64,000 nucleotides of DNA from Pyropia yezoensis (Eukaryota > Rhodophyta > Bangiophyceae > Bangiales > Bangiaceae), in assembly GCA_009829735.1 (NCBI GenBank), contig CM020620.1, positions 14,071,420 to 14,135,419 on the forward strand, in the 5' to 3' direction. Below, in pieces: positions 13,901-47,742 of this stretch. The notes under the pieces are model-generated. The model was not told where the DNA came from and did no database searches. It saw only the letters and a list, made by a program, of their open reading frames with translations. The position numbers and the translations under genes are program-made. Numbering within the stretch: position 1 is the first letter of the stretch; each line of letters opens with the position of its first letter.

Positions 13901-14073
13901 GCTGCGCCCATGTCTCCCGGCTCTCCTATAGACCACTGTTGCAACTGGCTTTTCCCGCTCTGTGTGTCTTCAAACTCTGCACAACTCCCCAAACCTGCTT
14001 CCCGCCGGCTGCGCTGTGGGCATCCCCGGAAGGCGCAGCTCCCCCTCCGGCCCCTCTTTCCTCCGACGGCAAG

Positions 14074-15336
14074 ATGAGAGTTTGCAAGCCCCTTCCCCTT
14101 GCTGCCGCGGTCCTGTTCCTCCTGCTCCTGTTCACCCCCCAACTTACCCTCGCCGCGTTCGAGCCGTCCTTCCTCTACGACGACCTTGCCACCCTGTCGA
14201 CGGCCGACACCCCGACGGTGCTGGTGCTGCTTGCGCCGTGGTGCGCGGCCTGCCGGGCAATGGCCCCTATGGTGGCCTCGTTGGGCGCCGCCGCCGCTGC
14301 CGACGGCGCGGCGGTCACCGTTGGGGTGGTGGACACTGACGAGGAACCCGGGGTGGCCCCCAAGTTTGGGGTCACCGCCTTTCCCGCCATCCTCTACTTC
14401 CCGCCAGGCTACTCCTTGGCACGGGGCAAGGCACCCACCGCCCCGCCCCTTTCGTACGCTCCGCGAGAGGGGGATCCACACCCGCGGCCGTCTCCGCCGT
14501 CATGGCCGGTGGCGTATGGGGACCACCGGCAGGCGCCAGTGGTGGCGGCCTGGGTCAACGCTCTTGCCGGCTCGCCCGTCTTGACTGTCGAGGAGGGTCC
14601 GGCCTACGCGGCGTGGCTGGCATCGGCTGGGGGGGTGCTGCCACCCGCGCCGTCTGTGAAGCCTTCATACGCCGCCGATACCCCTGCGTCGGATGATGAA
14701 GGGGATGCCAGCAAGCCGCCCGTATACCTGGATCGGGAGGGCGGCGAGGAGGTGGCGATGGAGCTCACGCCCACCGCAGCGGCGGCGTGGTCGCCTGCCA
14801 CCTTTTGGTCAGCCGTCGCGGGCCACCGCCACGCGCTGGTCTTGTGGGGCGCTGCCGCTGCAGAGACGGGTGTGGCCGATGGGATGGCGTCTGCATTGAT
14901 GGGCAGCGACGCTGCCGCCGGTGACGATGGAGGGTGGATGGTGGGCGTGCTGTCTGCACCTCCGGGGGTGGGGGAGCCCGTGGGGGGGGCGGCGGTGGTA
15001 GACGTGTCCGCCGGCGCGCCGCTTGCCGGCGCGGTCGGTGGCGGTACGGCGGCCGGCGGCGGTACGGTGGCAGGCGGCCTGTGGGGTACCGCCGACGTGG
15101 TGCACTGCCCAGGGTGGGGCTTTGGTGAGCTGTTTGAGTGCATCAACACCTGGTCGGTGCACCGTGCCAAGGCGCAAGTGGCGGCAGAGGTGGGCGACGC
15201 GTCGGGTATTGAAGGAGGGGCAGAGTGGATGGGGGGGGGTGACGTCGGGTCTGGCGCATCGGGGGTCGTGGACGACACGGTAGAGGCGGAGGCCGTGCCT
15301 CTAGGCAGTGTGGATCAGGTCAAACAGGAGCTTTAA
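14074..15336 (+). CDS. ER-targeted thioredoxin-fold (PDI-like) protein with a KQEL tail
   Basis: The product has 420 residues. The chosen ATG at 14074 begins a classical signal peptide (basic MRVCK, then a Leu/Ala/Phe hydrophobic core to about residue 28). A thioredoxin domain follows at about residues 30-130. It has the motif APWCAACRAMAP, where the CAAC active site replaces the CGHC of typical protein disulfide isomerases, and a TAFP cis-proline region. The C-terminal half is Gly/Ala-rich with no clear second redox site. The last four residues are KQEL, a KDEL-type ER-retention signal. Together this indicates a lumenal ER oxidoreductase or chaperone with one redox-active domain. The frame extends upstream to a TTG at 13939, but only the ATG gives the signal peptide. 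The four-copy 30-bp repeat lies just upstream. Confidence 0.8.
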   Translation: MRVCKPLPLAAAVLFLLLLFTPQLTLAAFEPSFLYDDLATLSTADTPTVLVLLAPWCAACRAMAPMVASLGAAAAADGAAVTVGVVDTDEEPGVAPKFGVTAFPAILYFPPGYSLARGKAPTAPPLSYAPREGDPHPRPSPPSWPVAYGDHRQAPVVAAWVNALAGSPVLTVEEGPAYAAWLASAGGVLPPAPSVKPSYAADTPASDDEGDASKPPVYLDREGGEEVAMELTPTAAAAWSPATFWSAVAGHRHALVLWGAAAAETGVADGMASALMGSDAAAGDDGGWMVGVLSAPPGVGEPVGGAAVVDVSAGAPLAGAVGGGTAAGGGTVAGGLWGTADVVHCPGWGFGELFECINTWSVHRAKAQVAAEVGDASGIEGGAEWMGGGDVGSGASGVVDDTVEAEAVPLGSVDQVKQEL

Positions 15337-18057: not shown

Positions 18058-21000
18058 TCACTCCAAGGACGAGGACGCCTCCACCGAGTCATCAAACTGG
18101 AGAGACCCATCGATGAGGGCCACCAGACGCCAAACCACCTCGTTCGCCGTCGGCCGTTGCGCAGGGTCCGCCGCCCAACACCTCTCAATCAGAGCCAGGT
18201 ACTCCCTGTTCATGGGCGTCGGTAGGATAGCCTTGGGGTCGACCGCCGTCGCTGCCGGTGCCGGCGCCGCCGACGCCGCCCGGTCGCTCGCCGCCGCACT
18301 ACCCTCTCGGCTCCCACTGACCATGGGGGGGCCCCGCGCGTCCGCCGAGGACTGCGGGGACGCGGGCTGCGACGCGCGCGCTGTCGACGGCTCGGTGGCG
18401 TCCCCCGTCAGCGCCGCGATGGCCGCGTGCAGCCCACTGCGCGACGCACTGTCCCGCCCGTCATGTGAACCAGACAAGCCGGGTGTCTCGCCGTACACGG
18501 GCCCCGCAGACGACGAGTGGGACAGCTTGGCGCTATCATCCGCGGCGGTGCTTGACAGGTGCCGCAGGCCCGCCGTGGATGGAAGGGAGAGGTAGTCTTG
18601 AGCGTTTGGCGGGCGCGCCTGTTGCCGCGCCTGTTGCCGCTGCCGCAGCTGCGAGGAGAGGGACAGCGGTCTACCTGACGCGTCCAACAGGTCGGGGGTG
18701 CCGCCAAAAGATAGCATCCGCCGGGCAAAGAGGTTGCCATCTGGCGCTTGTCTCGACGGCGGTTGCCCAGGGGCGGCACCCCCGCCCGCCCCGCCCGCCA
18801 CCGTGCCGCTTGCACCGCCAGGCGTACGCCCCACAATCGACGAGTAGGCGGACCGCTGGGGCTTATCCGACGAGCTGCACGATCGGTTGATCGGCATGTG
18901 GCCGCCGCTGCCTGCGCGAACCGGTGCGGCGCCCTTGTCGTCGTCTGGAAACACCAGGGTAGTGACGCGGCCGGGCGGACCAAGTGGCGGGCGGCCTCCC
19001 GGCACGTACGGTAGGCCTCCGCCCATGCCAGTGCTGTGCCTCCTCATGGGGCACGGCTGGATCATCTCCGACGACCGGGAAGAGACCGACACCCTTTGTG
19101 GGATGGCCGGCGGCCCGGAGCTGCTCGGACCGATCAATGATGGCATGATTCCGCCGCCGCTGCCTGACCCATCCAACGCCTTGGGGTCGACGCGCAGGCT
19201 GGGGGAGGCTGGCGGGAGCTTGTCGCCCATGGCTGCATTGGCCGCAACCGCCGCCGCCGCGGCACGAGCCGTGATGCGTCGCATCGGAAGGTCCAGGTAT
19301 AGAGAGGTGCTCTCCCCTGGTTGAGAAAGTGGCAAACTTTGCCGGGAGGGGGACCCAGACCGGCCGGGCCGCGGGCCCGGCCCCGGCCGGACGCCCCGCA
19401 AGGCCACCGGTAACAGGGTGGACGACACAATCGAATTGACGCTCGACCCAATGCCCGACAGCTTGGACGTGCTGCCAACCATCGCGGCCTTACGCTTGGA
19501 CGAGGCCGACGACGGAGTGCTGGCGGCCTTCTCCGCCGACGACAGGCGGTTGGCGGCGGGGTCGTCCCCCCCAGAGGTGTGCTGCTCCACTGCCGCCTGT
19601 GTAGGCGAGTGACGGAGGCGGCTGGGGTTGGGGAGTTTGAGGCCAGACGTGTGTGGCTGTTCCGCCACGATTGCCGCGATCGCCAGCGACGCCGACGCAT
19701 CCACCGCCGTCAGCGGCTCCTTCCCCAACAGCGAGGCGTCGGACTGGTCGCCCGGCAACTTGGCCGCCAGCAGGGACAGGTCTGGCCGTAGGTTCTCCTT
19801 GACGACTCCCCACAGCACCTCCATCACAGAGATGCCCTGAAAGGGCAGCTGCCGCGCGGCCAGCTCCCACAGGCAGATGCCAAACGAATAAATATCGGCG
19901 GCCGACGAGAAGGTGTTGGCCTCGAGGATCTCGGGCGCCGAGTACTGGACCGTCCCGGCAAACGTGTTGTTCTGGATGTTGTCCACGGTGCGGCTGAGGC
20001 CAAAGTCGGCCAGCTTGGCGTCCCAGCCCGACGAGATGAGGATGTTGGCGGTCTTGAGGTCCAGGTGGAGCACTGGCGGGTCCTGGCCGTGGAGGTACGC
20101 CAAGCCGCGGGCGGCACCGAGCGCAAACTTGAGGATCCTGTTGCGCGTCAAGCGGGTGGACGAGTCGGACAGCTGCTCCCGCAGGCTGCCCCGGCTGCAG
20201 TACTCCATAACAATCCACAGCTTGGCTGGCTCGTGCACGAACCCCATAAACAGGACAACGTTGGGGTGCCGCAGGTTCACCAGCGTCACCGCCTCGTCCT
20301 CAATCGTCAGCGCCGCGCCGTCGCTGTCTGGGTTGTGCACCTGGAACAGCTGCTTGACCGCCACGAGGGTGCCACGGAAGAGACCCATGTAGACCTCCCC
20401 AAAACCACCGAGGCCCATCTTCTCACCCAGTGCGATCGACTCTGACTCGATGCGCCACTTGATGAGCTTGCCCGCCTCAGACTTTTCCATTGCCAGCAGC
20501 AGCTCCAGCTCCGCCTCGTTGCGCTGGAAGCGCCGCGTAAACTGGCGCTCCCGCGCAATCACCGCTACGGTGGCGACGCGGCCGAGGCGGAGAAAGCGGG
20601 CCAGCCCTAACACCAGGGGCAGACCACACGCGTGGCCAACCAGAGTCAGGGTGGTAGAGAGGGCAACGACCACAAAATCGGCGGCCATGGCGCCATTGCG
20701 AAAGTACCCAGCCTGGCCATAGACAAACACGCGCAGGACCACCTCAATCGAGTAGAGGGAGGAGAGCAGCACGTCCAGCGCCAAGTACTGGGTGGCAGAG
20801 GGAAGTAGCTCCGACTGTGACGCACGAGGGGGTGGGGGGGCGGAGCTCAGCCGTGTCAGCCACCCCAGGCGAACAGTAAACGACACCACGTCACACAAGA
20901 TGAGGGTGTAGGTGAGCAGCAGTGCCACATTGGAGTCAATCATGTCCCAAAAGAGGACCCGCCAGCCGGAAAAGGGTGCCGCCTCGTCCTCATCCTCCTC

Positions 21001-21381
21001 CACACTCAGCGCCTCGAGGGACTCGAGGTCGTCTTCTATCTCTGAGTGGATGCCCGACCGCTGCTGCGAGATGGCGCCGCCGCCACCGACGCCGGCGGCG
21101 GCTCCAGTGGCACTGGCGGCAACACCCCCACCCCGCCCCTCCCCCACGTTCAAGCCCGTCGGCCGAGACGGCCGCCGCCAGGCCGCCACGGACGAGAGGC
21201 CAAAGAAGCCCCGCTTGGCCGCCCCCGCCCTCCCCGCACCGCCCGGCCCGCCGCCCAGCCCACCGCCAGCGCCGGGGCCGCGGCCGCGCCCATCGTCACT
21301 GACCGAGCCGACCGCCTCCAGCTGACGCTCCACGTCCACGACCCCATCGTCCGCCACCACCGCGTCCACGTCGCCAAGCAT
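18058..21381 (-). CDS. Voltage-sensor-domain / TKL (Raf-like) protein kinase fusion
   Basis: The product has 1107 residues from the ATG at 21381, whose context is GCCGCCATG; a GTG lies upstream at 21453. An acidic cytoplasmic N-terminus is followed by four membrane helices at about residues 150-272. S1 carries Asp164 in LILCDVVSF. S2 carries Glu213 and Arg217 (YSIEVVLRVFVY). S3 carries Asp235 (AADFVVVAL). S4 has Arg262, 265 and 268 spaced R-x2-R-x2-R. These are the landmark residues of Hv1/VSP-type voltage sensors. A charged coiled-coil-like helix (277-303) follows, as in Hv1, then a TKL kinase: GLGGFGEVYMG P-loop, Lys343, HLDLK (439-443), DFG (459-461) and APE (482-484). The final C-lobe part, ERCWAADPAQRPTANEVV, lies at about 1066-1083, after a ~500-residue low-complexity Ser/Pro/Gly-rich insert. 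No pore domain is present. Inferred role: membrane kinase gated by voltage or proton flux. Confidence 0.85.
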   Translation of the reverse strand: MLGDVDAVVADDGVVDVERQLEAVGSVSDDGRGRGPGAGGGLGGGPGGAGRAGAAKRGFFGLSSVAAWRRPSRPTGLNVGEGRGGGVAASATGAAAGVGGGGAISQQRSGIHSEIEDDLESLEALSVEEDEDEAAPFSGWRVLFWDMIDSNVALLLTYTLILCDVVSFTVRLGWLTRLSSAPPPPRASQSELLPSATQYLALDVLLSSLYSIEVVLRVFVYGQAGYFRNGAMAADFVVVALSTTLTLVGHACGLPLVLGLARFLRLGRVATVAVIARERQFTRRFQRNEAELELLLAMEKSEAGKLIKWRIESESIALGEKMGLGGFGEVYMGLFRGTLVAVKQLFQVHNPDSDGAALTIEDEAVTLVNLRHPNVVLFMGFVHEPAKLWIVMEYCSRGSLREQLSDSSTRLTRNRILKFALGAARGLAYLHGQDPPVLHLDLKTANILISSGWDAKLADFGLSRTVDNIQNNTFAGTVQYSAPEILEANTFSSAADIYSFGICLWELAARQLPFQGISVMEVLWGVVKENLRPDLSLLAAKLPGDQSDASLLGKEPLTAVDASASLAIAAIVAEQPHTSGLKLPNPSRLRHSPTQAAVEQHTSGGDDPAANRLSSAEKAASTPSSASSKRKAAMVGSTSKLSGIGSSVNSIVSSTLLPVALRGVRPGPGPRPGRSGSPSRQSLPLSQPGESTSLYLDLPMRRITARAAAAAVAANAAMGDKLPPASPSLRVDPKALDGSGSGGGIMPSLIGPSSSGPPAIPQRVSVSSRSSEMIQPCPMRRHSTGMGGGLPYVPGGRPPLGPPGRVTTLVFPDDDKGAAPVRAGSGGHMPINRSCSSSDKPQRSAYSSIVGRTPGGASGTVAGGAGGGAAPGQPPSRQAPDGNLFARRMLSFGGTPDLLDASGRPLSLSSQLRQRQQARQQARPPNAQDYLSLPSTAGLRHLSSTAADDSAKLSHSSSAGPVYGETPGLSGSHDGRDSASRSGLHAAIAALTGDATEPSTARASQPASPQSSADARGPPMVSGSREGSAAASDRAASAAPAPAATAVDPKAILPTPMNREYLALIERCWAADPAQRPTANEVVWRLVALIDGSLQFDDSVEASSSLE

Positions 21382-23234
21382 GGCGGCACGGGGGGGACAC
21401 GACGACGCACGCCCGACAGCCCCGCGAGGAGGGGGCGGCGCAGCGGTCCACACACCGCCACCAGCGGCAGGGCGCCAACGCCAGACGCCAGCTCCCCCCC
21501 CCCTCTGGCGTATGGGCCCACGGGGGTCGCGACCGGTGGGGCTCCGCCGCGGCAGGGATCACCACGACCACCACAACCACCACTGGCCGCGGAGCGTTGA
21601 GCTCCCTATCCCCCCCGGCCCCAACCAGGGATGAGGTGCTGTGGCTCTACTCACAGCGGCCGTCCCCTACCCCCCCCGCCACTCTCGCTCCACAGCCACC
21701 ACCCCCCCCCCCCCCCCCTCAGCCACAGGGGGCTTGCCGTCGACCGCTGCAGCGCGTCGCCTCCCAGCGAGGCCACATACACGACGCAGAGGCGGCGGCC
21801 GCGGCGGCGGTGCCTCCAAAGTAGCGGCCCCACACGTGAGGACAGGGTGGGGGTGGCGGCGGCGAGGGGAAGAGGGGGGGGGGGGGGGGGGGCGGAGAGC
21901 CGGGCGGGCGTGTGTGCGCGTGCCTCGCGGGAAAGTGCCGACGGCCACGGGCACAGGTGGGATACTCCCACACGCTGGGGCGGCGAGAGGAATGGCGACC
22001 GGCGCGCCGCCCCCCCCCCCCCCCCCCCCCGCCTCTCCCGGGAACACTCCCCAGCCGCCGTTGCGCCACGGCAGCCACCGCGGTAGCCGCCGCGGTAGCC
22101 ACCGCCACCACCACCGCCACCGCCACCGCCTCCGCCACCGCCACCGCCACACCACCACCCCTACCGCTACTGCCGCTAACAGCCGCTACCAGCCGCTGCC
22201 GCCCCTGCCGTCGCCACTGCCGCCGCCTGCCGCTGCCGTTGCCGCCAACCGCTGCCGCCGCCACTGCCCGCCAGGCCACCCCCCACCGCCCCACACGTGG
22301 CCACCCCCCCCGCACACCGTTGCCCGCCTGCCGGCCTGCCGGCCGGCCGGCCAGCCGGGTGGTGGGGGATCGCCCGCCCCCCCACCCCCACTCCCTCCCC
22401 CAGCCGCGCCAAAGCTGCCCGTGCCAACAAGGGGGAGAGGGCGATCCCCCCCCCCTCCTCCTGAACCCACCCCCTTCCCCCCCCCCCCCCCCCGCTGCCG
22501 CCGCGGGAGGGCGGCGACGGCGCGACAGGCGCCGCCGCAACCTCCCCGCGGCCACCACCGCCGGCGGGGCGTGCGCGGCGGCGACCATGTGGCGCGCCGC
22601 CCCGTGTCGTGACCCGCCCCCGCCCGGCGGGGGGGCTGCCCCACCCGCCGCGGCGGGGGGCCAACGTGGCACGCGCCGCCACGACGGCGGCGAGCGAGCG
22701 AGGGAGGGGCGGGCGGTCCCCGTCCCCCCCCCCCCACCTCCCCTTGCTCCCCCGCCCCCCTCCCCAGCTCCGCCACGGGGGTGGGTGGCGGGGGGGCGGC
22801 GGCGACCTGCCAGCTGGGCCCCGCCTCCGTCACCGCGTCTGGTCAGCTCATGAGGCCGCATCCCGCAGGTCGGCCGCGGCGGCGCGGCGGAGCGGGATCA
22901 CCCCTTGCGCTTCGCCGGGATGATCCGACCACGGAGGGAGGGTGGACGCCGCACGACGCAAACGCCCCTTCCGACCAACCAAGGAGAGGATGCCCCCCCT
23001 AACGCCAGTGACTTGTCTGTCAGCAAGATTTCACCTGGAAATACTCATTCGCGTCTAAGGACATGCCCAATTACTCGATCTCGACCTGTGCGCTGTCGTG
23101 CTCACCGCGATTGTGATTGTGTCACTTCAGATGACATCAGACTGTCACTACCTGACTATCTGACTGTCTATCTAGCTGTCGGATTCGTTGACTACATGTA
23201 GTGCTATGTATCTGACTGTCTGACTACACAGCGG
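21382..23234. other. GC-rich low-complexity region upstream of the kinase
   Basis: It contains runs of C and G (21700-21718, 21876-21892, 22011-22030, 22477-22492) and (CCACCG)n-like tracts. Long Pro/Arg/Gly frames exist on both strands without any domain. From 23.0 kb an A/T-richer patch holds repeats of CTGACTGTCT/CTATCTGAC near 23137-23228. It is likely the promoter and 5' region of the kinase plus intergenic DNA. Confidence 0.4.
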
Positions 23235-23922
23235 ATGCCTCTGATTAGCATCTGTGGCCGCCCGTGGCCGGCAACCCGCGCCCCCCCTCCCCCCTTCGCG
23301 CTCCTCGCACGCAGGTCTCTCCCGCTCTGTCCGTTTTCCGAGCGGGCGGCCGTTGGTTGTCCACCCTCCATTTCCATTCCCGTGCCGTCTGCCCGGTGCG
23401 CGGCGTGTCGCGCGGCGGGGGGGGGGGGGGTACGGGGGGGGGGGGGGGGGGGGGGGGGGGTGTCACTGGCCGGCCCCTGCGGTGGGGGAGCGCCCATGGG
23501 CGCCGCTGGCGGTGGGGACGGTGGCAGTGGTGGCGGCGGCAGCGGCGGCGGCAGCGGCGGCGGCAGTGGCGGCAGCGGCGGTGGAGGTGGCGGTGGTGGT
23601 GGCGGTGGCGGCGGCCGGGGGGGGGGAGACGGCGGGGCACCCGCTTCCGTTGCCGAGGCGGGGCTGCCGCCCCCCGTGGCCCACCCGCCGCGGGGCGCCC
23701 ACCACGGGCGGTCCGTGTCGCTGGACCTGGGCGTCGCCGCCGCCGCGGGGGCGGCCGCCGCCGCCGCGTGGCCGCCCTTGCGGTCCGGCCTGCCGGCGGG
23801 GAGGGGCAGGCCGCCTGACGGCGCCGGCCGCCGGGGGGGGGTGGTGGCGGTGGCGGCGGCGGGGGGGGGGGGGGGGGGGTGGCCCTCTTTCCGGCGCCGT
23901 CCCTGCGGCGACGGCGTCGGCA

Positions 23923-23953
<31 letters not shown>

Positions 23954-25581
23954 AGGCGGCGGGTGGGGGCGGCGCTGCCGCCGGCGCCCCGCCCTCGCCA
24001 GCGTTGGCGACGCCAGCAGCGACGGTGTCGTCAGCGGCGGCGGTGGCGTCGGCGTCTGCGGCGTCTGCGGCGTCGGCGGCGGCCGCGGCTGCCACCGCCG
24101 CGGCGGCGGCGGCGGGGGCTGCCGCCGACGCGGCGGCGGGCGGCGGCGGCGGCAGCGACGATGAGTGGGCGCCCTTCCTCGCCCGCGCCGCGCGGCGGCG
24201 GCCGCCCCGGCGGCCGCGCCGCGCAAAGTCCGACACGGGCCTGCTGGCGCGGTGGCCCCTGACGCGGGGTGCCGCCGCCGCCGCCGACGGGGGGGCGTGT
24301 GGTGGCGGCGGTGGCCCCTTTGGGGCCGTCCTGGGTGGCGGCGGCGGCGGCGGTGGGGGTGGGGGTGCCCCCGCCGACGGGGGGGGGGGGGGGGGGGGGG
24401 CTGCCGTGGGTGGGAGCGGGCGGCCGCCGCCGGCCGCTGCCGCTGCCGCTGGGCGGCCTGGGCGCCCTCCCCACCCCGCCGTCTCGGCCCGCGTCGTACG
24501 TGTCGGGGTGTGACCTGTCGCTGGGGAGCGCCCAGGGGGGGGCGGGGTCTGGGGAGGAGGCGGGCAGCGGCGGCGGGTGGGGTGGCGGCGACGGCGGGGG
24601 TGGTGGGTGGGATGGGGGTGGCGGCGGCGGCGGCGTCAGTGGCCTCGGTGCGGACCCGCTCGAGCCGTTTGCAGATAGCGACACACTGTCGGCAGACCTG
24701 GAGGACCTGTTTGACGGCGCCAGCGTCACCTCTGCGCGCTACTATGCCGAGCTCCCCGCCCACGTGGACAGCGGCCTGAGCACGGACCTGGTGGTGGAGC
24801 CGTACGTCCCCCGGGGGGGGGGTGCCGCCGGCGGCGGGGCGGGCGTGTATGGCGGTGGCGGCGGGCGGGGCGACAGCGGTGGCGGTGGGGGTGGCGACAG
24901 CGGTGGCGGTGGGGGTGGCCGTGGCGGTGGCCGTGGCTGCGGCGGTCCTGGTGGGGGCTGCGCTGACGACGGCGACGCTGGCGGCGGCGGCCGCGGCGCC
25001 GACGGCGGCGGCGGCAGCGGCGCCACGCCCATGCACCTGGACGTGCACGGGCTGGTGTGGGTGGGCAATGAGGCGGCGACCAACGCGGCGTTTGCGCTCG
25101 CCGGGGCGGGGGTGAGCCCCCTCGCAGACGGTGGGGGTGGTGGCGGCAGCGGGGCGGGCGGCGGCGGCGGCGGCGGCGGCGCCTGCGCCTTGGCGGCTGG
25201 CGACCGTAGCGGCTGGGCTGCCGTCGGCGGCCGCGGCGTCGGCGGCGGCGGCGGTGGCGGCGGCGGCGGCAGCGACGGCGACGGCTGTGGTAGTGGCGGC
25301 GGCGGTGGGGATGACGGTCTGGGCGGGGATGATGGGGGTGGCGGCGGTGGCGGCTGCGGCGGCGACTTTTTCGTGGGCGCCGCCGTGGAGGGTGCCTGGG
25401 TGGGCGCCGCCGAGGCGCACAACGCCCTCGTCGCGGGCTGGACGCACGAGGCTGCCGCCGCCGGCCACGTGCCGGCGCCCCCCCGCCGGCGGCCGCGCGG
25501 CGGCCGCGCCGCCACCGGCGGCCACGGCAGCGGCCACCCCGGCGGCGGCGGCGGCGGCGACCGTACAGACGGCAACGTTGG

Positions 25582-25615
<34 letters not shown>

Positions 25616-25951
25616 GGCGGCTGGGGGCACGGCGGGGCGCCGGTGTACCCCCCCCCCCCGCCCCCCCTGGCTCCCCCGGCCCGCCCCCCCGCCGCCCCCC
25701 CTGACAAGGACAAGGACAAGGACGACGACGACGACGGCAACGACAACGACGACGACGACGGCAGTGAGGACGGGGCGGTCGACGGGGGCCTCCCGCTGGG
25801 CAGCGACGGCGGCCTGTGGGCGGCGCCGACCGCCGCGGCCGACGACATCCGGGTGGTGCCCATAGGCGGTGGCTGGGGGGCGGGAGGGCGGCCGTGCGTG
25901 CCGCCGCCGCGGACGGTGCCGACCAGCGGCGGGCACGACCATGTTCCATGA
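23235..25951 (+). CDS. Gly-rich acidic protein, frame broken at poly-G runs
   Basis: No single frame spans the region, but non-repetitive coding-like segments line up on the plus strand. These are SVSLDLGVAAAAG (frame of 23235), SDDEWAPFLARAARRR (frame of 23254) and, in the frame of 24269 through the stop at 25951, SDTLSADLEDLFDGASV, PMHLDVHGLVWVGNEAATN, DFFVGAAVEGAWVGAAEAHN and an Asp-rich DKDKDKDDDDD segment. The frame changes coincide with long G runs near 23408-23460, 23838-23879 and 24380-24400. The C-terminal 560 codons are uninterrupted. Poly-Gly, poly-Ala and acidic blocks suggest a largely disordered protein of unknown function. The start is uncertain: ATG 23235 is the first in frame. 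A 1131-codon frame on the opposite strand is Pro/Arg/Ala mirror sequence and is not preferred. Confidence 0.5.
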
Positions 25952-27206
25952 GAGGCGGTGGGCGGGGGGGGGAGGGGGGGGGGGGCGAGAGTGGGGGGGG
26001 TGGTTGGGAAGGAGGCGGGAAAGGATGCCGGAAAGGGGGGCGGCGGGGTGGTGGGGAGGGCAACATGGCGGGGGACCTGGCGCGGGGCTGCTGGCAGGGG
26101 TCGTCCACGCTGGACCCACCGCCGCACGTGCCGTACCTACGCCCCCCGCCGCGGGCACCCTGCAATATATTTTCCGCCTGTCGCGCTGGCGGTGCCACCA
26201 CCCCCCACCCCCCACCACCCCCCCACCCCCCACCACCCCCCCCCCCCCCATCGCCGCCGCCGCCGCCACTGGCACCGCCGCCCCCCCTCCCCGCCACCGC
26301 CACCGCCCTCGCCCTCCACCGCCACCGCCACCGCCACCACCACCGCCACCACCACCGCCACCACCACCGCCACTGCGCCGCCGCCGCCGCCGCCACCGCC
26401 ACCGTGCCCCCCGCCGCCGCCACGCACCCCCAATTCGCATCGCCGCTCCCCCCTCCCCCCGCGTCCGCCTCCTCCCCGCCCGCCACCACCCCCCCCCCCC
26501 CCTTGGGTGACCCCCATGCGCCACCGCACGGCCTGCGCGGCCGTCGGATACTCTACCGCCCCCTCCCCCCTCCCCTCCCTCCCCCGCCGTCCCCGCCACC
26601 CCCCCCCCCCCACCCTCTGCTCTACGCTGCGTCTATCCCGCCGCTGCCGCCGCCGCCGTGAGTGCGGGCAGGGAGGGAGGGGGGGAGGGGAATTGCGGGG
26701 CGCAGGAGGGGGGGGGGGATGGGGTATGAGGCGTCGGCGGTGGGTGCTCCCCCCCCCCCCCCCACCCCTCCCCCGCTACCCCCCCCGTACCATCCTCCTC
26801 CTCCCCCCGCGCGGCGCGTGCCGTCTCTTTCAGCGCCCGTCGCTCCCGCAGGCAGCGGCGGTGGTGGCGGTGGCGGCCGTGAGGGGGGGGGGCGGCAGCC
26901 GCCCGCCCGGCCGCGGTGGCTGCCCCCGCCCCCCTCCCGCCCGCGGTGGCCGGGCGGCGCCGCGTGGTGAAAAGGGCGACCGGCGGCGGGCGGCTGGTGG
27001 GGGAGCGCCGGCTCATCCACCCCACCCACCCACCCACCACCACACCACCCACACCCGCCTGTTCCACCCTCCCGCCCTCTCACCATCCTCCCCTCGCCCG
27101 CACCCTGCACCCCTCACCCACCGGCCCTTTCCCCCCCTTGTTCCGCCTCCTCACTGTCGACACTTTTCCTAACCCCCCCCCCCCCCCCTCGCCCCCTCTC
27201 GTCAAG
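25952..27206. other. C/G-run low-complexity region
   Basis: It holds alternating G-rich (25960-26060) and C-rich blocks with (CCACCG)n and (CACCCCCCA)n tracts up to 26.65 kb, then more of the same until the ATG of the next gene. Frames on both strands are compositional. No gene seen. Confidence 0.5.
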
Positions 27207-27635
27207 ATGGCCGCCGCCCTCCGCCGCGCCGTTGCCCCCGCGCTTGCCGCTGCGGCCGTCGCCACCCTCCTCGCCACCCTCTTGGCGGCGGGCGCCGCGC
27301 CCACGTCGGCGCAGCCCGCCGCCAAGTGCGCCACCCCCACCGACGTGGGCACCCTCGTCGGCTGGTGCCGCTGCTCGACCATGATGGTGCCCAAGGACGC
27401 CGTCTCCCCCCCGCCCGTCGCGTCGGCCGACCCGTGGTGCAAGGTCACCCGCCCCGTCAGCGCGGTGCACTACTGCGACGCTGCCGGCGCGGGTGCCTGT
27501 GACCTCGAGTGCGCGCCGCCGGTGGTCGAGTGCACGGGGCCGACCGCACCCAACGGGGTGTGCCCGTGTGTGGCGGGGGCGGTGCGGACGGTGCTGCGGT
27601 ACAAGGGGCCGCTGGACGCGGCCGCCGCCTTGTAG
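27207..27635 (+). CDS. Small secreted cysteine-rich protein (10 Cys)
   Basis: The product has 142 residues. The ATG at 27207 (context GTCAAGATGGCC) starts a clear signal peptide: basic ALRRAV, an Ala/Leu/Val core, and a likely cleavage after about residue 35 near APTSAQPA. The mature part of roughly 107 residues contains 10 cysteines, including WCRC, ACDLEC and VCPC patterns, consistent with a small disulfide-rich extracellular or cell-wall protein. The frame is open well upstream but there it is Pro/Arg low complexity. I recognise no named family. The stop at 27633-27635 is followed by a G20 run near 27667-27686. Confidence 0.75.
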   Translation: MAAALRRAVAPALAAAAVATLLATLLAAGAAPTSAQPAAKCATPTDVGTLVGWCRCSTMMVPKDAVSPPPVASADPWCKVTRPVSAVHYCDAAGAGACDLECAPPVVECTGPTAPNGVCPCVAGAVRTVLRYKGPLDAAAAL

Positions 27636-30261
27636 GTCCTGGTAGGTCCTGGGGGTGGGAGGTCAGGGGGGGGGGGGGGGGGGGGGCCTCCACCGCAGAC
27701 GGACGCCGCCGTGCGGCGCCAGCGGTGCAAGCGTGGCCGCGGTCTCCCCCTCCTCGCCGAGCCCCCGGCATGGGCGGGTGGGTTTTCCACTGTCTTTGTT
27801 TGTACAGTACAGTAAACGCGAGGACGGTGACCGCCACTTGGAACCCACTGGGCCTGTGTTCCTTGCCACTGCCATGACCATACGGGCTGCGCTTCTCACG
27901 CAGCCTCTGGCTGCCCGCCGCCCACGTTGGCGTGCATGGCGCGGCGCCCCTTTCCCCCCCCCCCCCCCCCCCCCCCTCTCACCTTCGCCCCCCGCCCTCC
28001 TCATTCCCTTCCCTGTGGTCCTGTTGACTGCCAGCCCAGCATGGCGAGGCCGGAAGGACAAGCCCCATGTCCATGACCTCACCACGCCGCAGGCGTGCAG
28101 GGAAGTGACAATGGCCTTTGATGCGACGCTGGAAAGTGAATGATCCATGCCCACGCTGCCGAAATCGTCATCGCCCGCGTGGCAAAGGCGCCGCCACCGA
28201 CGCCGCCCGCCTCCAGTCCCAGCAGGGCCTGCTGAGCAGGCAGGTCCCTTGCCGCACCCCCCCCACCCCCCGCGCCTCTGGCGGCACCTCCCCCCCCCCG
28301 CCCGTGCCCATCCCTCGCGCTGGGGCCAGGGTAGAGAACGGCGGCGGCCCGCACACGATAACACGGGGGGCGTCGGCGGCGGCGACGACCGGGGGTGGGG
28401 GGGCGGTACTGGGCGATCGGGGGTTTCGAAAAGCCAGCTGATGACAGACCAGGACGTCATCAACACGATCTTGGCAGTCACCGCATCACACCCCCACTAC
28501 CGCCACGCAGGCCTGCGGCCATCGTCAGCTTTGACTTTTTCCCGCTGCGGTACATCGTGAACTTTGACTTTCTCCCGCTCAAGGCCCTGAATCCGAGCGC
28601 AGTCTGATGCGTATCTGGATCACGAAAGTGAGCTGCTAATCAACGGTCTTGATGCGGGTTCACCTGGTGCGGCCCGGGATACGGCATCACGGGATGCGGG
28701 CTTGATCGACGGTTGTTGCACCAGTGAAAAAGCAGTTTTTTAATGACACAACCTCACCCAGTGACCACGGTGTGGCCGCCCCGTCTACCTCTCCCACCGC
28801 TGCCGTCCCTGCCAACGCCGGCAGCGTAGCGCCATCCCCTCACGCTTGCCAGCGCCGCGTAGCACCACTGCCAGCACAGCGGCACTGTCCACCACGACGG
28901 CCGGCGGCGCGGCGCCTCCCAACATCCCCACATCCGAGCAGCGTAGCGCCACTCGCCACGACCACGGCAGCGCAGCGACGCCTCCGACGCCTCCGCCGGC
29001 CGCGCGGCTCCCCACCCCCACCGGCAGTGTGGCGCCGCGCTCCAGCAGCGCCAGTAGCGCGACAACTTCGTACCCAAGTGCAACCTTTCCAGCACGCAAT
29101 GAGACCCACCAGCGCAGTGAAAGAACAAGAAAGAAGAAAAAGCCAGAGCAAGAACAGGAATGAGGGATGTGGAAAACACATCGAGCGCACAGGCACCACC
29201 GTTAGCAAAGGATAAGGCGGTCAGCGATGCTTGCACGCTCGAGGCGGAGCTGCCCGCGCGCCCCCTCCCTCCTGTGCCTCCGTGCGCACCTCACGCGCAA
29301 CTGCCACCTCAAAAAGTGGGCCTCCAGTGGCGCACACCCTCCACCGCCACCGAACGATCAGCAGTGGTACCTACTGGCCGCCACTGTCCAACACCCCCCC
29401 CGCCCTGCTCAACCCCCCCCGCCACCTCTCCCCCTACCACTCCCCCGCTCCCCCCCCTCCGCTGCTCTTCCCCCCCGCTTGGACCCCCTCTCAGCCCGCA
29501 ATCCTCACTCCCAGCGCCACCGAACGGGCGGGTAGCCGCCATCTCCTGCTTCCCGCCACCGCCGCCGCCAGTCGTACGCCCGTCGGTCTGGAACGCACTT
29601 GCAAAGTGGGTTGTCAAAGGCTGCGCCAGAGCGATTCCGGCAGCGGTGGCCAGGTACGCAGAGCTACTGCCCCTCATGGTAGTGGCGACACCAGGAGGAA
29701 GTCACAGAGGCGACGAAGGTGGTGGAGGCGGTGGAGGTAGGGTGGAGGTGGCGGTGGCGGTGCAAGTTGCGGCGGCGGCGGAGGGAACGCGGCCGACTGT
29801 CAGTGGGCGCCTGCACAGCCTGTGTGGGCTCTGTGCGGTGGGACTCCTGTCCACGCCTCACGTCCCTCTCTGAGACTCCAATGCACGACCGCCTGGAGTC
29901 CTTTGGGCGACTGTCTCGCCGAGTCGGCACAGCGCCTGTCGCGGAACGAGGAGCCAATGAAATTGTGGCGTTCAAATCAAACTCGTGACTACGGCGTCTC
30001 GCTCGCCCGAGCGATTTCGAGCGAGAAGTGATGCGCATCAAAGGTCGTCGCAAAACGCCAATCTGAGCGAGCCACCGCGCTCAGGAGCTCTGATGCGGGC
30101 CTGAGCGCCAAAAAGTGAAAGGTGACGATCAACAACGGCTCCCCGAGTGACACGCAAGCCCCATCCCCCCCCCACGCCTACACGCCCCCCCCGAGGGGGC
30201 GTGTTGGTGGGGGCCCCGCCGCCGCCGCCGCCGCTGCTCAGGCAGAGCCCACCCCCCCGCC
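27636..30261. other. Stretch without a supported gene
   Basis: It contains the likely 3' UTR of the secreted protein gene, C and G runs (27955-27976, 27667-27686) and a pair of near-identical CTTTGACTTTYTCCCGCT segments at about 28529 and 28562. 28.75-29.1 kb carries frequent short GTAGCGCCA-like words. Frames on both strands show only biased composition. Confidence 0.4.
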
Positions 30262-44052: not shown

Positions 44053-47000
44053 TCAGACTCTTGACAAAGCCGTTTGGCTCTTGAGAACCATGCGGCGTGT
44101 TCCCAGCGTGGGGTGACCAGGAGCGTCCTTTGGACTGGATGGTAATTCTGTGACCACTTGGTCGAGAGTGTGCATGGGGGGTATCCTCAGGCAGATGGCT
44201 TGTGAGTGGGGTTGCTCGTGGGGAGTGACGTGCTTCTCGGGTGTGTAACTCAAACGGCCATAGTGCCTTGTGAGTTCCGGGAGTTCTCCGAGTGGTCCCC
44301 ATGTGGGGAAGGTGAAGTTCCGACATGCCGAAGGCAACGTTGACTTCATGTAGTACACAGGAATGTTCTCATAAACAGAGCGGTCTGCGTTTTCCCATTG
44401 GACATTAGCCTGTACCACCCCCCATGGGTCGACGTAGACCGCGAGAATGTTGGGCTGCCAAATTGTGGCGCTAGCGCAAGTGAGCGCGGCAAGTCCAGTA
44501 GCCAAGGCAACCTTGGTGGTCGGCTTGCGTGGTTTTCGCCACGTGTATGCAGGTATTTCTACCTTCTTGGACCTCAAATGTCGAATGACTAAGTTACGTG
44601 GCAGATTTTCAACCGGTTCCCACGTGTCATCCTTGGGGGTATAGTCATACCATCGCACCTTAAATTCGTAGGAATCACCGCTCTTACGATGAGACACGAG
44701 CTTGTCGATGACGTACTCGTCGTGGACAGTCGGCTCGGGTCGTGGTTTGTCAAACCCATCGAGCAGTGGGTGCGGTGCGGACTCTTCCGCGTCGTCCGGG
44801 CGTGGTGCCGCAGTGGCGTGGTCGCTGTTGATGCGCTTCTCGATTCCATCGACGTCGATGACGAACGTTGACTCGTCCGCGTCGACGAAGATGAACGGCC
44901 CAATGGCCTTGCTCTGCAGCTTATTAGCTCGTTGGTGGTTTGTCGTGTAGACATAGTCACCGATCTTGATCTTACGGTTGCGATCCCCAATAGGTGCATC
45001 GAAGTTGCGCTTGTAACGTTGTTGCGTCTTTGTAAGCGCTTTGACAACGGCAGGTATCTGCAGTCTCAGTCGGGCCATGAAATCTCGCTTCCTTGCGAGT
45101 GGCGAGCCATTACTCAGCGTGCTGCGCGGGGTGAGGGGTGTGCCAGGTGGCAAGTTGCGGACTGACAAGTTCGGCACACGACACGGTATGACCAGTTCGA
45201 ATGGTGCCAGTCCTGTGGACCGATGTGGTTGGCTGTTGTAAGCCATGGTGAGGACGGGCAGAAGTTCGTCCCAGCCCTTGGGGTCCTCCGTGACGTAGTG
45301 TCGGAGTTGGGTAGCAATCGTCCGATTGTACCTTTCCACTTGACCATTGGTCTGCGGGTGGTAGGCGGTGGTGCGCACGGTCTCAACACCGAGTACTTTC
45401 ATCACAGCGATGAAGAAGTTCGACATGAACTGTGGGCCTTGATCGGATAAGATCTTGTCCGGGGGTCCATAGCACGCGATCCAGTGCTCAATAAAGGCGG
45501 ATGAAACCGAGTTGGCAGTGATGGTCTTCAGTGCTACGCACTTGGTGAGTTTTGCGAACCGGTCGGTAATGACCAAAATGAAGCGGTTTCCGCTCTTTCT
45601 CGCAGGCAAAGGGCCAAGGATGTCAATTGACAACTCGGTCAATGGTTCCGAAGCTGGGAACAGTGTGAGTGGTGTCGTATGCTTTCGCAGCGCCAACCTG
45701 TTTTGTGCACAAGTGGTGCAGTTGGTGATAGTGCTGTGGATATCAGATATCATGGACGGCCAGTAGAATTTTCTTCTCATGGTGAAGTACATCTTGTTCA
45801 TGCCCGGATGGGCGGCGGTGGTCGCCATGTGTTGAAGCTTCAAGATGTTTTCTTGTTGCGCCATGGGTATGACCAGTTGGTTTCCATAGGGTGTCTTGCG
45901 ACGCAGCGCGTTGTCGTCGTCAATGATGAACGACTTGTGACCTCCCTTGGCGATGCTGTTCATGATTGACTTGCAGAAATCATCCGATTGCTGCTTGTCT
46001 ATGACATCGTAGTAGTCGACGGGTGTCGGGTCGGACTTACCCGTGTACCGATGAGTTTGAACGCCGTGTGCCGTCTGGGCAACCACCAGGCATGGAATGT
46101 CATCGTTGATGGGTTCAGTGACTGCGTTGTTGTCCGCTCTGGACAGAAAATCGGGCAAGTGGTGGCTGGCACCAGGCTTGTACTTGAGTTTGAATTCAAA
46201 CTCCGCTGGGCGCATACGCCATCGCATTAGTCGCCCGCTTGAATCGGCAGTGCTGTATATCCAGCTAAGGCTCTGGTGGTCCGAGCGGATCACAAAGCGT
46301 TGACCTTCGAGAAAGTGCCTCAATTTGAGGACAGCCCACCTGATGCCTAGGCATTCTATCTCCGTTGTGGAGTAGTTCAGCTCTGCTGTGTTGAGTGCTC
46401 GGCTCCAATAACCAACCGGTTGTAGGTTGCCGTCATCGTCCGATTGGAGCAGCGTGCACCCAAGTTGATAAGCACTTGCATCGACATCCAGTGTCAGTTG
46501 ACGTCCGGCCTTTGGTAAGGCTAAGATGGGAAGGTGCACCAGGGCGTCACGGAGGTCTTCGAAGGCGGCCCGCTCCTCATCTGAGGGTGGCGCCAAGTCC
46601 GGTGGGACTTCCTTCTTTGTCAACGCGTTGAGCGGTCGTGCTCGCTTAGTGAAGTCGACTACAAATCGTCGGTAGACGCTGCACATGCCGAGGAAACTCT
46701 TGAGTTGGGTCTTGGTCTTGGGGAATGTCGCATGACGCAGCGCTTCCGTGTTCTTGTTTAGAACGTGGAGTTTGCCAGGTGTTATGCTGTGGCCGAGGTA
46801 CTCCACCTCGTTGGAGAACCAATTGCACTTCTCAAGATTGAGGGTAACGCCCGCTTCCCTAAGTCGGGTGAGGACGGTGTCTACATCATGGATGTGTTCT
46901 TTGGCGGTTGCCGAAAATATGATAACGTCGTCTAAGTAGACTAGGCAAACTTGCCACTTGAGTCCGGACAGGATAATATCCAGGGCTCGTTGGAATGTTG

Positions 47001-47742
47001 CCGGCGCGTTGATCAAGCCGAATGGTATTGTTTTCCAGTCAAAGATGCCATAGTGCGTCGTGAAGGCCGTCTTTTCTTGGCCCTCCTTTCGCAGGGGTAC
47101 TTGCCAATACCCGGCAGTGCAGTCGAGAGACGTGAAGCCCTTGGCGTCTCCAAGGGAGTCAAGGCAGTCCTCCATACGAGGAAGTTTGTACGCATCCTTC
47201 TTGTTGACGCTGTTCAGTCGTCGATAATCGACGCAGAACCGGGCCTTCCCGTTCTTCTTCGGGACAATGACGACCGGACCGGCCCAGTCACTGTGGCTTT
47301 GTTTGATAACCTTGAGCTTCAACATCTTGTTGATCTGGTCGACGATAATCGCCCGTTTGAACGCACCGGTTCGGTATGGTTGAGCTCGTATGGGGGCGAC
47401 CCCTGGTGGGGTGACGATGGCATGCTCAGTAGCGTGCATGACTCCGAGAGTCCCGTCCCATATCTTGCCGTGATTGGCTTGCATAGTCTTGATTAGCGCG
47501 TGCAAATACTCTGGCGCATCTTGAAGGTCGATGTCGTCGAGTGACGGTTTTGTTTGCTCGTCCTTCGGCGCCGCCGGGTCGTCTTTCTCCGTTGGAGCCG
47601 TGAGTACTTGACCGAGGTGTTGTTCGGCGAACGCCACGATGCTGCCCTTGTGGATGCTGGTCATGTCTGGCCCAAAGTTGCACATCTTCACCAGGAATAG
47701 TTCGTTTGGGTTGACTGTTGGAACTCCTCGGGCAATTGCCAT
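44053..47742 (-). CDS. pol: Pol polyprotein of the nested element: RT, RNase H, integrase, chromodomain, C-terminal extension
   Basis: The frame has 1229 open codons. RT occupies about residues 115-365 with FCVDYRRLN and the catalytic YLDD at 269-272. RNase H follows (about 415-535) with Asp421 (LDVDAS), Glu461 and Asp488 (SDHQS). The integrase has an HHCC zinc finger (H639, H645, C675, C678) and the D-D-E core Asp707 (LSIDIL), Asp767 (LSDQG) and Glu803 (NGQVERY). A chromodomain lies at about 1007-1057 (YVIDKLVSHRK ... DDTWEPVENL), typical of chromoviruses, which it probably directs to modified histones. A further ~170 residues follow it, with a hydrophobic segment at 1077-1105. The first codon of this frame is not an obvious initiator; protease lies upstream in other frames, so expression as part of a Gag-Pol product is expected. 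Confidence 0.95.
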   Translation of the reverse strand: MAIARGVPTVNPNELFLVKMCNFGPDMTSIHKGSIVAFAEQHLGQVLTAPTEKDDPAAPKDEQTKPSLDDIDLQDAPEYLHALIKTMQANHGKIWDGTLGVMHATEHAIVTPPGVAPIRAQPYRTGAFKRAIIVDQINKMLKLKVIKQSHSDWAGPVVIVPKKNGKARFCVDYRRLNSVNKKDAYKLPRMEDCLDSLGDAKGFTSLDCTAGYWQVPLRKEGQEKTAFTTHYGIFDWKTIPFGLINAPATFQRALDIILSGLKWQVCLVYLDDVIIFSATAKEHIHDVDTVLTRLREAGVTLNLEKCNWFSNEVEYLGHSITPGKLHVLNKNTEALRHATFPKTKTQLKSFLGMCSVYRRFVVDFTKRARPLNALTKKEVPPDLAPPSDEERAAFEDLRDALVHLPILALPKAGRQLTLDVDASAYQLGCTLLQSDDDGNLQPVGYWSRALNTAELNYSTTEIECLGIRWAVLKLRHFLEGQRFVIRSDHQSLSWIYSTADSSGRLMRWRMRPAEFEFKLKYKPGASHHLPDFLSRADNNAVTEPINDDIPCLVVAQTAHGVQTHRYTGKSDPTPVDYYDVIDKQQSDDFCKSIMNSIAKGGHKSFIIDDDNALRRKTPYGNQLVIPMAQQENILKLQHMATTAAHPGMNKMYFTMRRKFYWPSMISDIHSTITNCTTCAQNRLALRKHTTPLTLFPASEPLTELSIDILGPLPARKSGNRFILVITDRFAKLTKCVALKTITANSVSSAFIEHWIACYGPPDKILSDQGPQFMSNFFIAVMKVLGVETVRTTAYHPQTNGQVERYNRTIATQLRHYVTEDPKGWDELLPVLTMAYNSQPHRSTGLAPFELVIPCRVPNLSVRNLPPGTPLTPRSTLSNGSPLARKRDFMARLRLQIPAVVKALTKTQQRYKRNFDAPIGDRNRKIKIGDYVYTTNHQRANKLQSKAIGPFIFVDADESTFVIDVDGIEKRINSDHATAAPRPDDAEESAPHPLLDGFDKPRPEPTVHDEYVIDKLVSHRKSGDSYEFKVRWYDYTPKDDTWEPVENLPRNLVIRHLRSKKVEIPAYTWRKPRKPTTKVALATGLAALTCASATIWQPNILAVYVDPWGVVQANVQWENADRSVYENIPVYYMKSTLPSACRNFTFPTWGPLGELPELTRHYGRLSYTPEKHVTPHEQPHSQAICLRIPPMHTLDQVVTELPSSPKDAPGHPTLGTRRMVLKSQTALSRV

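Follow-up and report, generated by a model that had tools for sequence, protein, structure and literature searches.

Voltage-sensing enzymes are very few. In the voltage-sensor phosphatases (VSPs), movement of the S4 segment of a voltage-sensor domain (VSD) switches a cytosolic phosphatase through a short basic linker, and the general plan of a voltage sensor plus an enzyme is therefore already known from a phosphatase. In Hv1, the S1 Asp sets selectivity, and the same residue also occurs in non-conducting VSD proteins. The channel-kinases TRPM6 and TRPM7 combine an S1-S4-type membrane part with a kinase, but they possess a pore and their enzyme is an alpha-kinase. In the available text of a plant-physiology review, voltage-coupled phosphatases figure as one of "a few noteworthy exceptions" where biochemistry is acted on directly by voltage (PMC8133626), and no word beginning with "kinase" occurs in the available main text of a 2024 review of voltage sensors (PMC13095418). 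The nearest reported architecture, going by the accessible part of its description, is the VSD-cyclase family of Phytophthora, which includes the guanylyl/adenylyl cyclases PPTG_13136 and PPTG_13761, whose models are called exploratory by their authors, and which is also present in other flagellates (PMC12223298). Many red algae are also described, in the accessible text of PMC10377628, as having proton channels, one per species.

Here we analyse a locus of Pyropia yezoensis that encodes a voltage-sensor-type segment joined to a protein kinase, a new variant of this plan as regards the partner enzyme. An earlier note on this DNA, made from its letters alone, knew of no described protein with such an architecture, and we likewise found no VSD-protein kinase in the open-access literature, a scope that stops short of supplements (among them the protein lists of PMC4878010, possible holders of such a protein), most subscription papers and bioRxiv.

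One frame for a voltage sensor and a kinase

The window, that is, the whole stretch of 64,000 nucleotides analysed, holds on its minus strand a frame of 1166 codons, which its ORF list gives as open from 21558 to 18058. The first ATG, at 21381, starts a protein of 1107 residues (P0001) without an internal stop (Table 1), and the range that had drawn attention, 20572-20931, corresponds to residues 151-270, spanning S1 to S4. The earlier observation of a voltage sensor and a TKL-type kinase in one uninterrupted frame is confirmed. The NCBI model of the locus, the Pyropia yezoensis "hypothetical protein I4F81_011097" (P0002), is 100% identical to the locus protein over the part used for searching, and it begins and stops at the same points as the 1107-residue frame. 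It lacks residues 591-689 (99 aa), which fall in the low-complexity insert of the kinase C-lobe, a difference that possibly reflects alternative splicing or a wrongly called intron.

Table 1. Features of the locus, with positions in the window
Feature	Residues	Position	Strand	Basis
Whole coding frame, 1107 aa + stop		18058..21381	-	ORF reading and comparison with NCBI model
S1, with D164 (Hv1/TPTE-type S1 Asp)	approx. 146-172	20866..20946	-	hydrophobicity, alignment; register from P0011
S2, motif Y210-x2-E213-x3-R217	approx. 198-222	20716..20790	-	motif as given in the available text of PMC4878010
S3, with D235	approx. 229-251	20629..20697	-	hydrophobicity, alignment
S4, R262-x2-R265-x2-R268	approx. 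255-275	20557..20619	-	motif, alignment
Linker from S4 to kinase, ~33 aa, Pro-free	approx. 276-308	20458..20556	-	alignment
TKL-type kinase, N-lobe and most of C-lobe	309-540	19762..20457	-	Pfam, PDB search, motifs
Low-complexity insert in kinase C-lobe	541-1056	18214..19761	-	alignment, motif spacing
99 codons missing from P0002, as if an intron	591-689	19315-19611	-	frame and P0003 read straight through
Kinase subdomain XI	1057-1092	18106..18213	-	motif, Pfam tail match

When the whole protein is ranked by the hydrophobicity of its non-overlapping 19-mers, the top four coincide with the four segments claimed for the sensor (152-170 in S1, 236-254 in S3, 202-220 in S2 and 257-275 in S4), and the seven landmark residues D164, E213, R217, D235, R262, R265 and R268 are all found where they had been placed, which gives S4 only three Arg. 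The S2 motif [FYW]xx[ED]xxx[RK], which, according to the accessible text of PMC4878010, has served to find voltage sensors, is followed by RxxRxxR in only 0.04% of 20,000 shuffles of the P0001 VSD. Between S4 and the kinase, the linker shows no hydrophobic 19-mer peak (maximum +0.23) and therefore no pore helix. An identity as an ion channel was rejected on this ground, since S5 and S6 would be missing.

Regarding the kinase, Pfam Pkinase matches in the same frame as the sensor with an E-value of 2.1e-50. The motifs follow each other at 323 (G-loop), 340-343 (VAVK), 439-446 (HLDLKTAN), 459 (DFG) and 482 (APE), and subdomain XI carries CWAADPAQRPT at residues 1068-1078. The claim of a complete set of kinase motifs in one frame thus stands as to the motifs, all of which are there, but it had missed the long C-lobe insert, which makes subdomain XI start (1057) 517 residues beyond residue 540. 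The 60-residue tail aligns with positions 226-257 of the 258 of PK_Tyr_Ser-Thr, scoring 17.2 bits on its own, below the cut-off of 23.1. The best PDB match of the kinase is CTR1 (E 8e-43); among the best 60 of 708 matches, CTR1, MAP3K9, MLK4, MLT/ZAK and B-Raf come at the top, with FAK and a lectin kinase lower. On the profile match, the catalytic motifs and these nearest solved relatives, which are TKL, the kinase is classed as TKL-type, in agreement with what had been claimed. It resembles the TKL kinases CTR1, MLK, MLT/ZAK and B-Raf in its catalytic domain and differs from them by having HLD for HRD, a large C-lobe insert and an N-terminal voltage sensor.

Elsewhere in the window, a 1229-aa frame of Ty3/gypsy retrotransposon type lies at 44053-47742 (minus strand), with Pfam matches to reverse transcriptase, RNase H, integrase zinc-binding and core domains and a chromodomain. 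A thioredoxin domain (E 1.6e-11) is found in a 465-aa frame at 13939-15336 (plus strand), which also matches OST3/OST6 below threshold. The stretch 22001-28000 is very rich in GC (77-82% in 2-kb steps), with extended G or C runs and numerous long frames that overlap on both strands.

Conservation of the fusion in red algae

A phmmer search with residues 130-345 returned six proteins: the locus itself (P0002), a near-identical copy (P0003, 99% identity), three more at 86, 83 and 68% identity, and a "Protein kinase" from Gracilaria domingensis (P0007), matched with an E-value of 9e-17. The P0007 segment returned five proteins, itself included, with Agarophyton chilense and Gracilariopsis chorda ("putative serine/threonine-protein kinase drkD") among its matches, and the P0011 segment returned no protein other than P0011; all three are single-sequence searches, by which diverged relatives would be missed. 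None of the names shown for family members mentions a voltage sensor. Pyropia yezoensis belongs to the Bangiophyceae and Gracilaria to the Florideophyceae, and the fusion therefore occurs in two red-algal classes; the earlier proposal to look for it in related genomes is thereby answered for named species of both. From their sequences, P0004-P0006 would be Bangiales, and P0010 and P0011 florideophytes.

All ten rows of an alignment of P0001 with P0003-P0011 (P0002, being the same locus, was left out) carry the VSD-kinase fusion, namely the locus, the near-identical copy and eight others. Each VSD has exactly one S2 motif and exactly one RxxRxxR, and the S2 motif, the S3 acid and an S4 Arg at every third residue are present in every row. 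Thirteen of the 136 VSD positions are invariant (D149, S150, A153, D164, D203, V214, R217, Y221, G222, Y226, R262, R265 and R268), and these include five of the seven landmarks (D164, R217, R262, R265 and R268), an enrichment with a hypergeometric probability of 7e-5, which is weak when only the charged VSD residues are considered (seven of 16 invariant, P 0.07). The other two landmarks, E213 and D235, are substituted solely by the other acid, position 235 being E in the five florideophyte-type rows. The column of D164 is free of gaps and lies 15 residues past the invariant D149; in an alignment with fewer members, which split the Gracilaria S1, D164 was not invariant. Against the five florideophyte-type rows, P0001 is 21-30% identical in the VSD and 69-70% in the kinase.

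The linker is of equal length in nine of the ten rows and two residues shorter in the remaining one, and R277, R279, L292, L296, K305, L306 and K308 are invariant in it. Its identity to P0001 (residues 275-308) is 94-100% in P0003-P0006 and 26-38% in the other rows. The coiled-coil-like helix that the earlier note had placed after S4 did not find support in a simple test: the linker is Pro-free and charged, and its helical moment does not rise above that of shuffles in any of the ten rows (p 0.53-0.78).

The G-loop, VA[VI]K, H-L-D-L-K-T-x-N, DFG, APE and C-W...R-P-[ST] are also found in all ten rows, always with the HRD Arg replaced by Leu (HLDLK), and a kinase with HLDLKxxN is by its motif of the non-RD, Ser/Thr type. 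The distance from residue 540 to subdomain XI varies between 290 and 540 residues across the rows. Within the insert, a short motif F[AS]RRMLSF is kept in the five Bangiales-like rows while the rest drifts freely, and KVTATIQMFDDRPPI and FMRRL are kept in the five florideophyte-type rows. The F-x-R-R pieces of both sets may correspond to each other, and this motif could act as a docking or pseudosubstrate motif.

In the scanned genome assembly of P. yezoensis (107.5 Mb, 11 contigs) there are 11 Ion_trans matches, one of which is this gene. No second VSD-enzyme fusion was seen among six of the ten others, those in L004, L005, L007, L009 and L010, whose frames were judged by eye (over 1.5 kb on either side for L004, L005 and L007) and have the appearance of channels or channel fragments.

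Kinship of the sensor

The earlier note had proposed a search against Ion_trans and Hv1/VSP profiles. Pfam Ion_trans matches residues 163-272 of the whole protein with 27.9 bits, and scores 32.9 bits on the isolated VSD segment and 31 on the genome frame, in each case over the curated cut-off of 25. Of four distant members scanned whole, it stays below this cut-off in P0011 (20.8 bits), P0006 (19.3) and P0007 (10.9), and gives no match at E<=1 in P0009; six of the nine isolated VSDs match at E<=1. Precomputed Pfam annotation lists Ion_trans for P0002, P0003 and P0005, and not for P0004 or P0006-P0011.

A profile of nine VSDs picks out solved voltage sensors: at E<=1 it has 115 distinct matching sequences in the PDB, and the best 60 of these bear the names of two-pore or voltage-gated channels, "ion transport proteins", VSP/TPTE2 or 3wkv. 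Calcium channels head the table because the scores of their four repeats add up; of the five single-repeat scores given, the highest is 27.4 bits. Among the one-VSD chains in the 60 of 115 matches listed, the voltage-sensor phosphatase 4g7v, which we take to be Ci-VSP, comes first (47.2 bits, E 2.3e-11), followed by 3wkv, presumably the Hv1-VSP chimera, and TPTE2 (40.8 each) and then by an "ion transport protein" (35.5). When the profile is cut to the part from S2 to the linker, 3wkv (37.5) overtakes 4g7v (30.8) among one-VSD chains, and the match to 3wkv extends into the linker. As a control, reversed VSD sequences gave a single PDB match at E<=10, to an unrelated ribosomal protein (E 1.9). 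Of the refuting outcomes named in the earlier note, the one concerning profiles, that they would not give a voltage sensor, thus did not arise.

Taken singly, the first 309 residues match a T-type calcium channel (E 9e-6) and 3wkv ("Ion channel", E 2e-4) in the PDB. The VSD of P0011 matches a T-type calcium channel (E 2e-4), TPTE2 (0.003) and 3wkv (0.025), and that of P0009 bacterial-type channels (E 0.13-0.29) and GPCRs (E 0.6-1). The matches of the last two VSDs are weak, as are the Ion_trans scores of the distant members, whose assignment depends instead on the alignment, the invariant residues and the joint profile. When P0011 is aligned, its S1 Asp is matched to that of TPTE2 and also to that of 3wkv, and its three S4 Arg to the R-x2-R-x2-R of 3wkv; the S4 register against 3wkv shifts by one turn if P0001 is aligned instead. 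From the profile scores and this shift, the class of stand-alone VSD is well supported by sequence, and the choice between VSP and Hv1 as the nearer kin is not.

The protein shares with Ci-VSP and TPTE2 the stand-alone S1-S4, a short basic linker and a C-terminal enzyme, the VSP linker being about half as long as the red-algal one. The enzyme of VSPs is a PTEN-like phosphoinositide phosphatase and here it is a protein kinase; membership of the VSPs was rejected because Pfam shows a kinase and no PTEN-type phosphatase or C2 domain. Hv1 is similar in its stand-alone VSD, S1 Asp and three S4 Arg, and the red-algal protein differs from it by the lack of RxWR and of a supported coiled coil, and by its kinase; membership is not claimed because RxWRxxR is absent, all ten rows having RxLR or RxIR. 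Contrary to TRPM6 and TRPM7, it has no pore and its kinase is conventional. In the Phytophthora VSD-cyclases, too, a segment of voltage-sensor type that lacks a recognised pore is attached to a signalling enzyme, in their case a cyclase rather than a kinase; their sensor is compared with Kv channels in the accessible text of PMC12223298.

A candidate voltage-regulated kinase

Sequence comparison establishes the homology of the sensor to the VSDs of VSPs, Hv1 and channels, the one-frame fusion, the conserved landmarks and the intact catalytic motifs. The overall interpretation of the earlier note, a voltage sensor (by sequence profile) plus a TKL-type kinase in a conserved pairing, is thereby supported. 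We consider it probable that the protein is a membrane kinase under voltage control, with a VSP-like build and the opposite chemistry; the control by voltage or pH that had been put forward would be of this inferred kind. A stand-alone S1-S4 sensor without pore helices would be seated in a membrane, and depolarisation would shift R262, R265 and R268 past a charge-transfer centre formed by Y210, E213 and D235. As S4 runs on into a short charged linker that ends where the kinase N-lobe starts, its movement would reposition the kinase on the membrane, or release it, by the same S4-linker coupling as in VSPs, acting here on a kinase. We infer that the sensor moves with voltage and alters the activity of the kinase, and likewise the direction of this effect, the membrane and the substrate. 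Given the non-RD catalytic loop, direct mechanical or membrane control would be likelier than activation-loop phosphorylation, and this loop, together with the conserved linker, suits control through the linker. Against this reading speak the low number of S4 Arg and their shifting register on 3wkv, the weak Ion_trans and PDB matches of florideophyte-type members taken singly, the weak landmark enrichment among charged residues, and the linker's lack of amphipathicity beyond chance; moreover, a kinase with HLD and a C-lobe insert of 290-540 residues could be weakly active.

The remaining readings take the same features differently. That two adjoining genes are read as one is very improbable. 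In its favour, the frame is an ORF without splicing, in GC-rich DNA of a kind that often yields long ORFs by chance, and 99 aa separate it from the NCBI model. Against it, the join recurs with near-equal linker length in other red algae, both in gene models and in contigs, and the kinase profile match begins 49-50 residues past R268 with no stop between. Separate mRNAs for the two halves are unlikely because the gene models and contigs of several species hold both in one frame. Were the voltage sensor degenerate, a mere membrane anchor or dimerisation module, the kinase would be governed by other inputs, such as the insert or partners. The faster drift of the VSD (58-79% identity between P0001 and P0004-P0006, vs 94-100% for linker plus kinase) and the weak or absent single-sequence matches of the florideophyte-type members would agree with this. 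However, anchors require hydrophobicity and not buried charges, and here D164, R217, R262, R265 and R268 are invariant in all ten rows and the charge of E213 and D235 is kept at 21-30% identity, which makes this explanation doubtful.

To a similar degree, we find it unlikely that the VSD conducts protons in the manner of Hv1, as a channel to which the kinase is tethered, with the kinase sensing local pH or phosphorylating neighbours. It is the invariance of the S1 Asp in all ten rows and, in P0011, the alignment of this Asp and of the S4 R-R-R with those of 3wkv that speak for it, but the same Asp also aligns with that of TPTE2, and the Hv signature RxWR (as given in the accessible text of PMC10377628) is absent, its third position being L or I throughout.

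For the regulation of a kinase by voltage, which we prefer, we lean, somewhat less firmly, towards an ancient red-algal family of voltage-gated kinases, in which depolarisation would lead to Ser/Thr phosphorylation without an ion messenger, following a VSP-like design and possibly with a proton-conducting sensor. If true, membrane potential would be tied directly to phosphorylation in multicellular seaweeds, the family would supply a naturally occurring module for signalling under voltage control, and it would serve to test whether the VSP type of coupling works with an unrelated enzyme.
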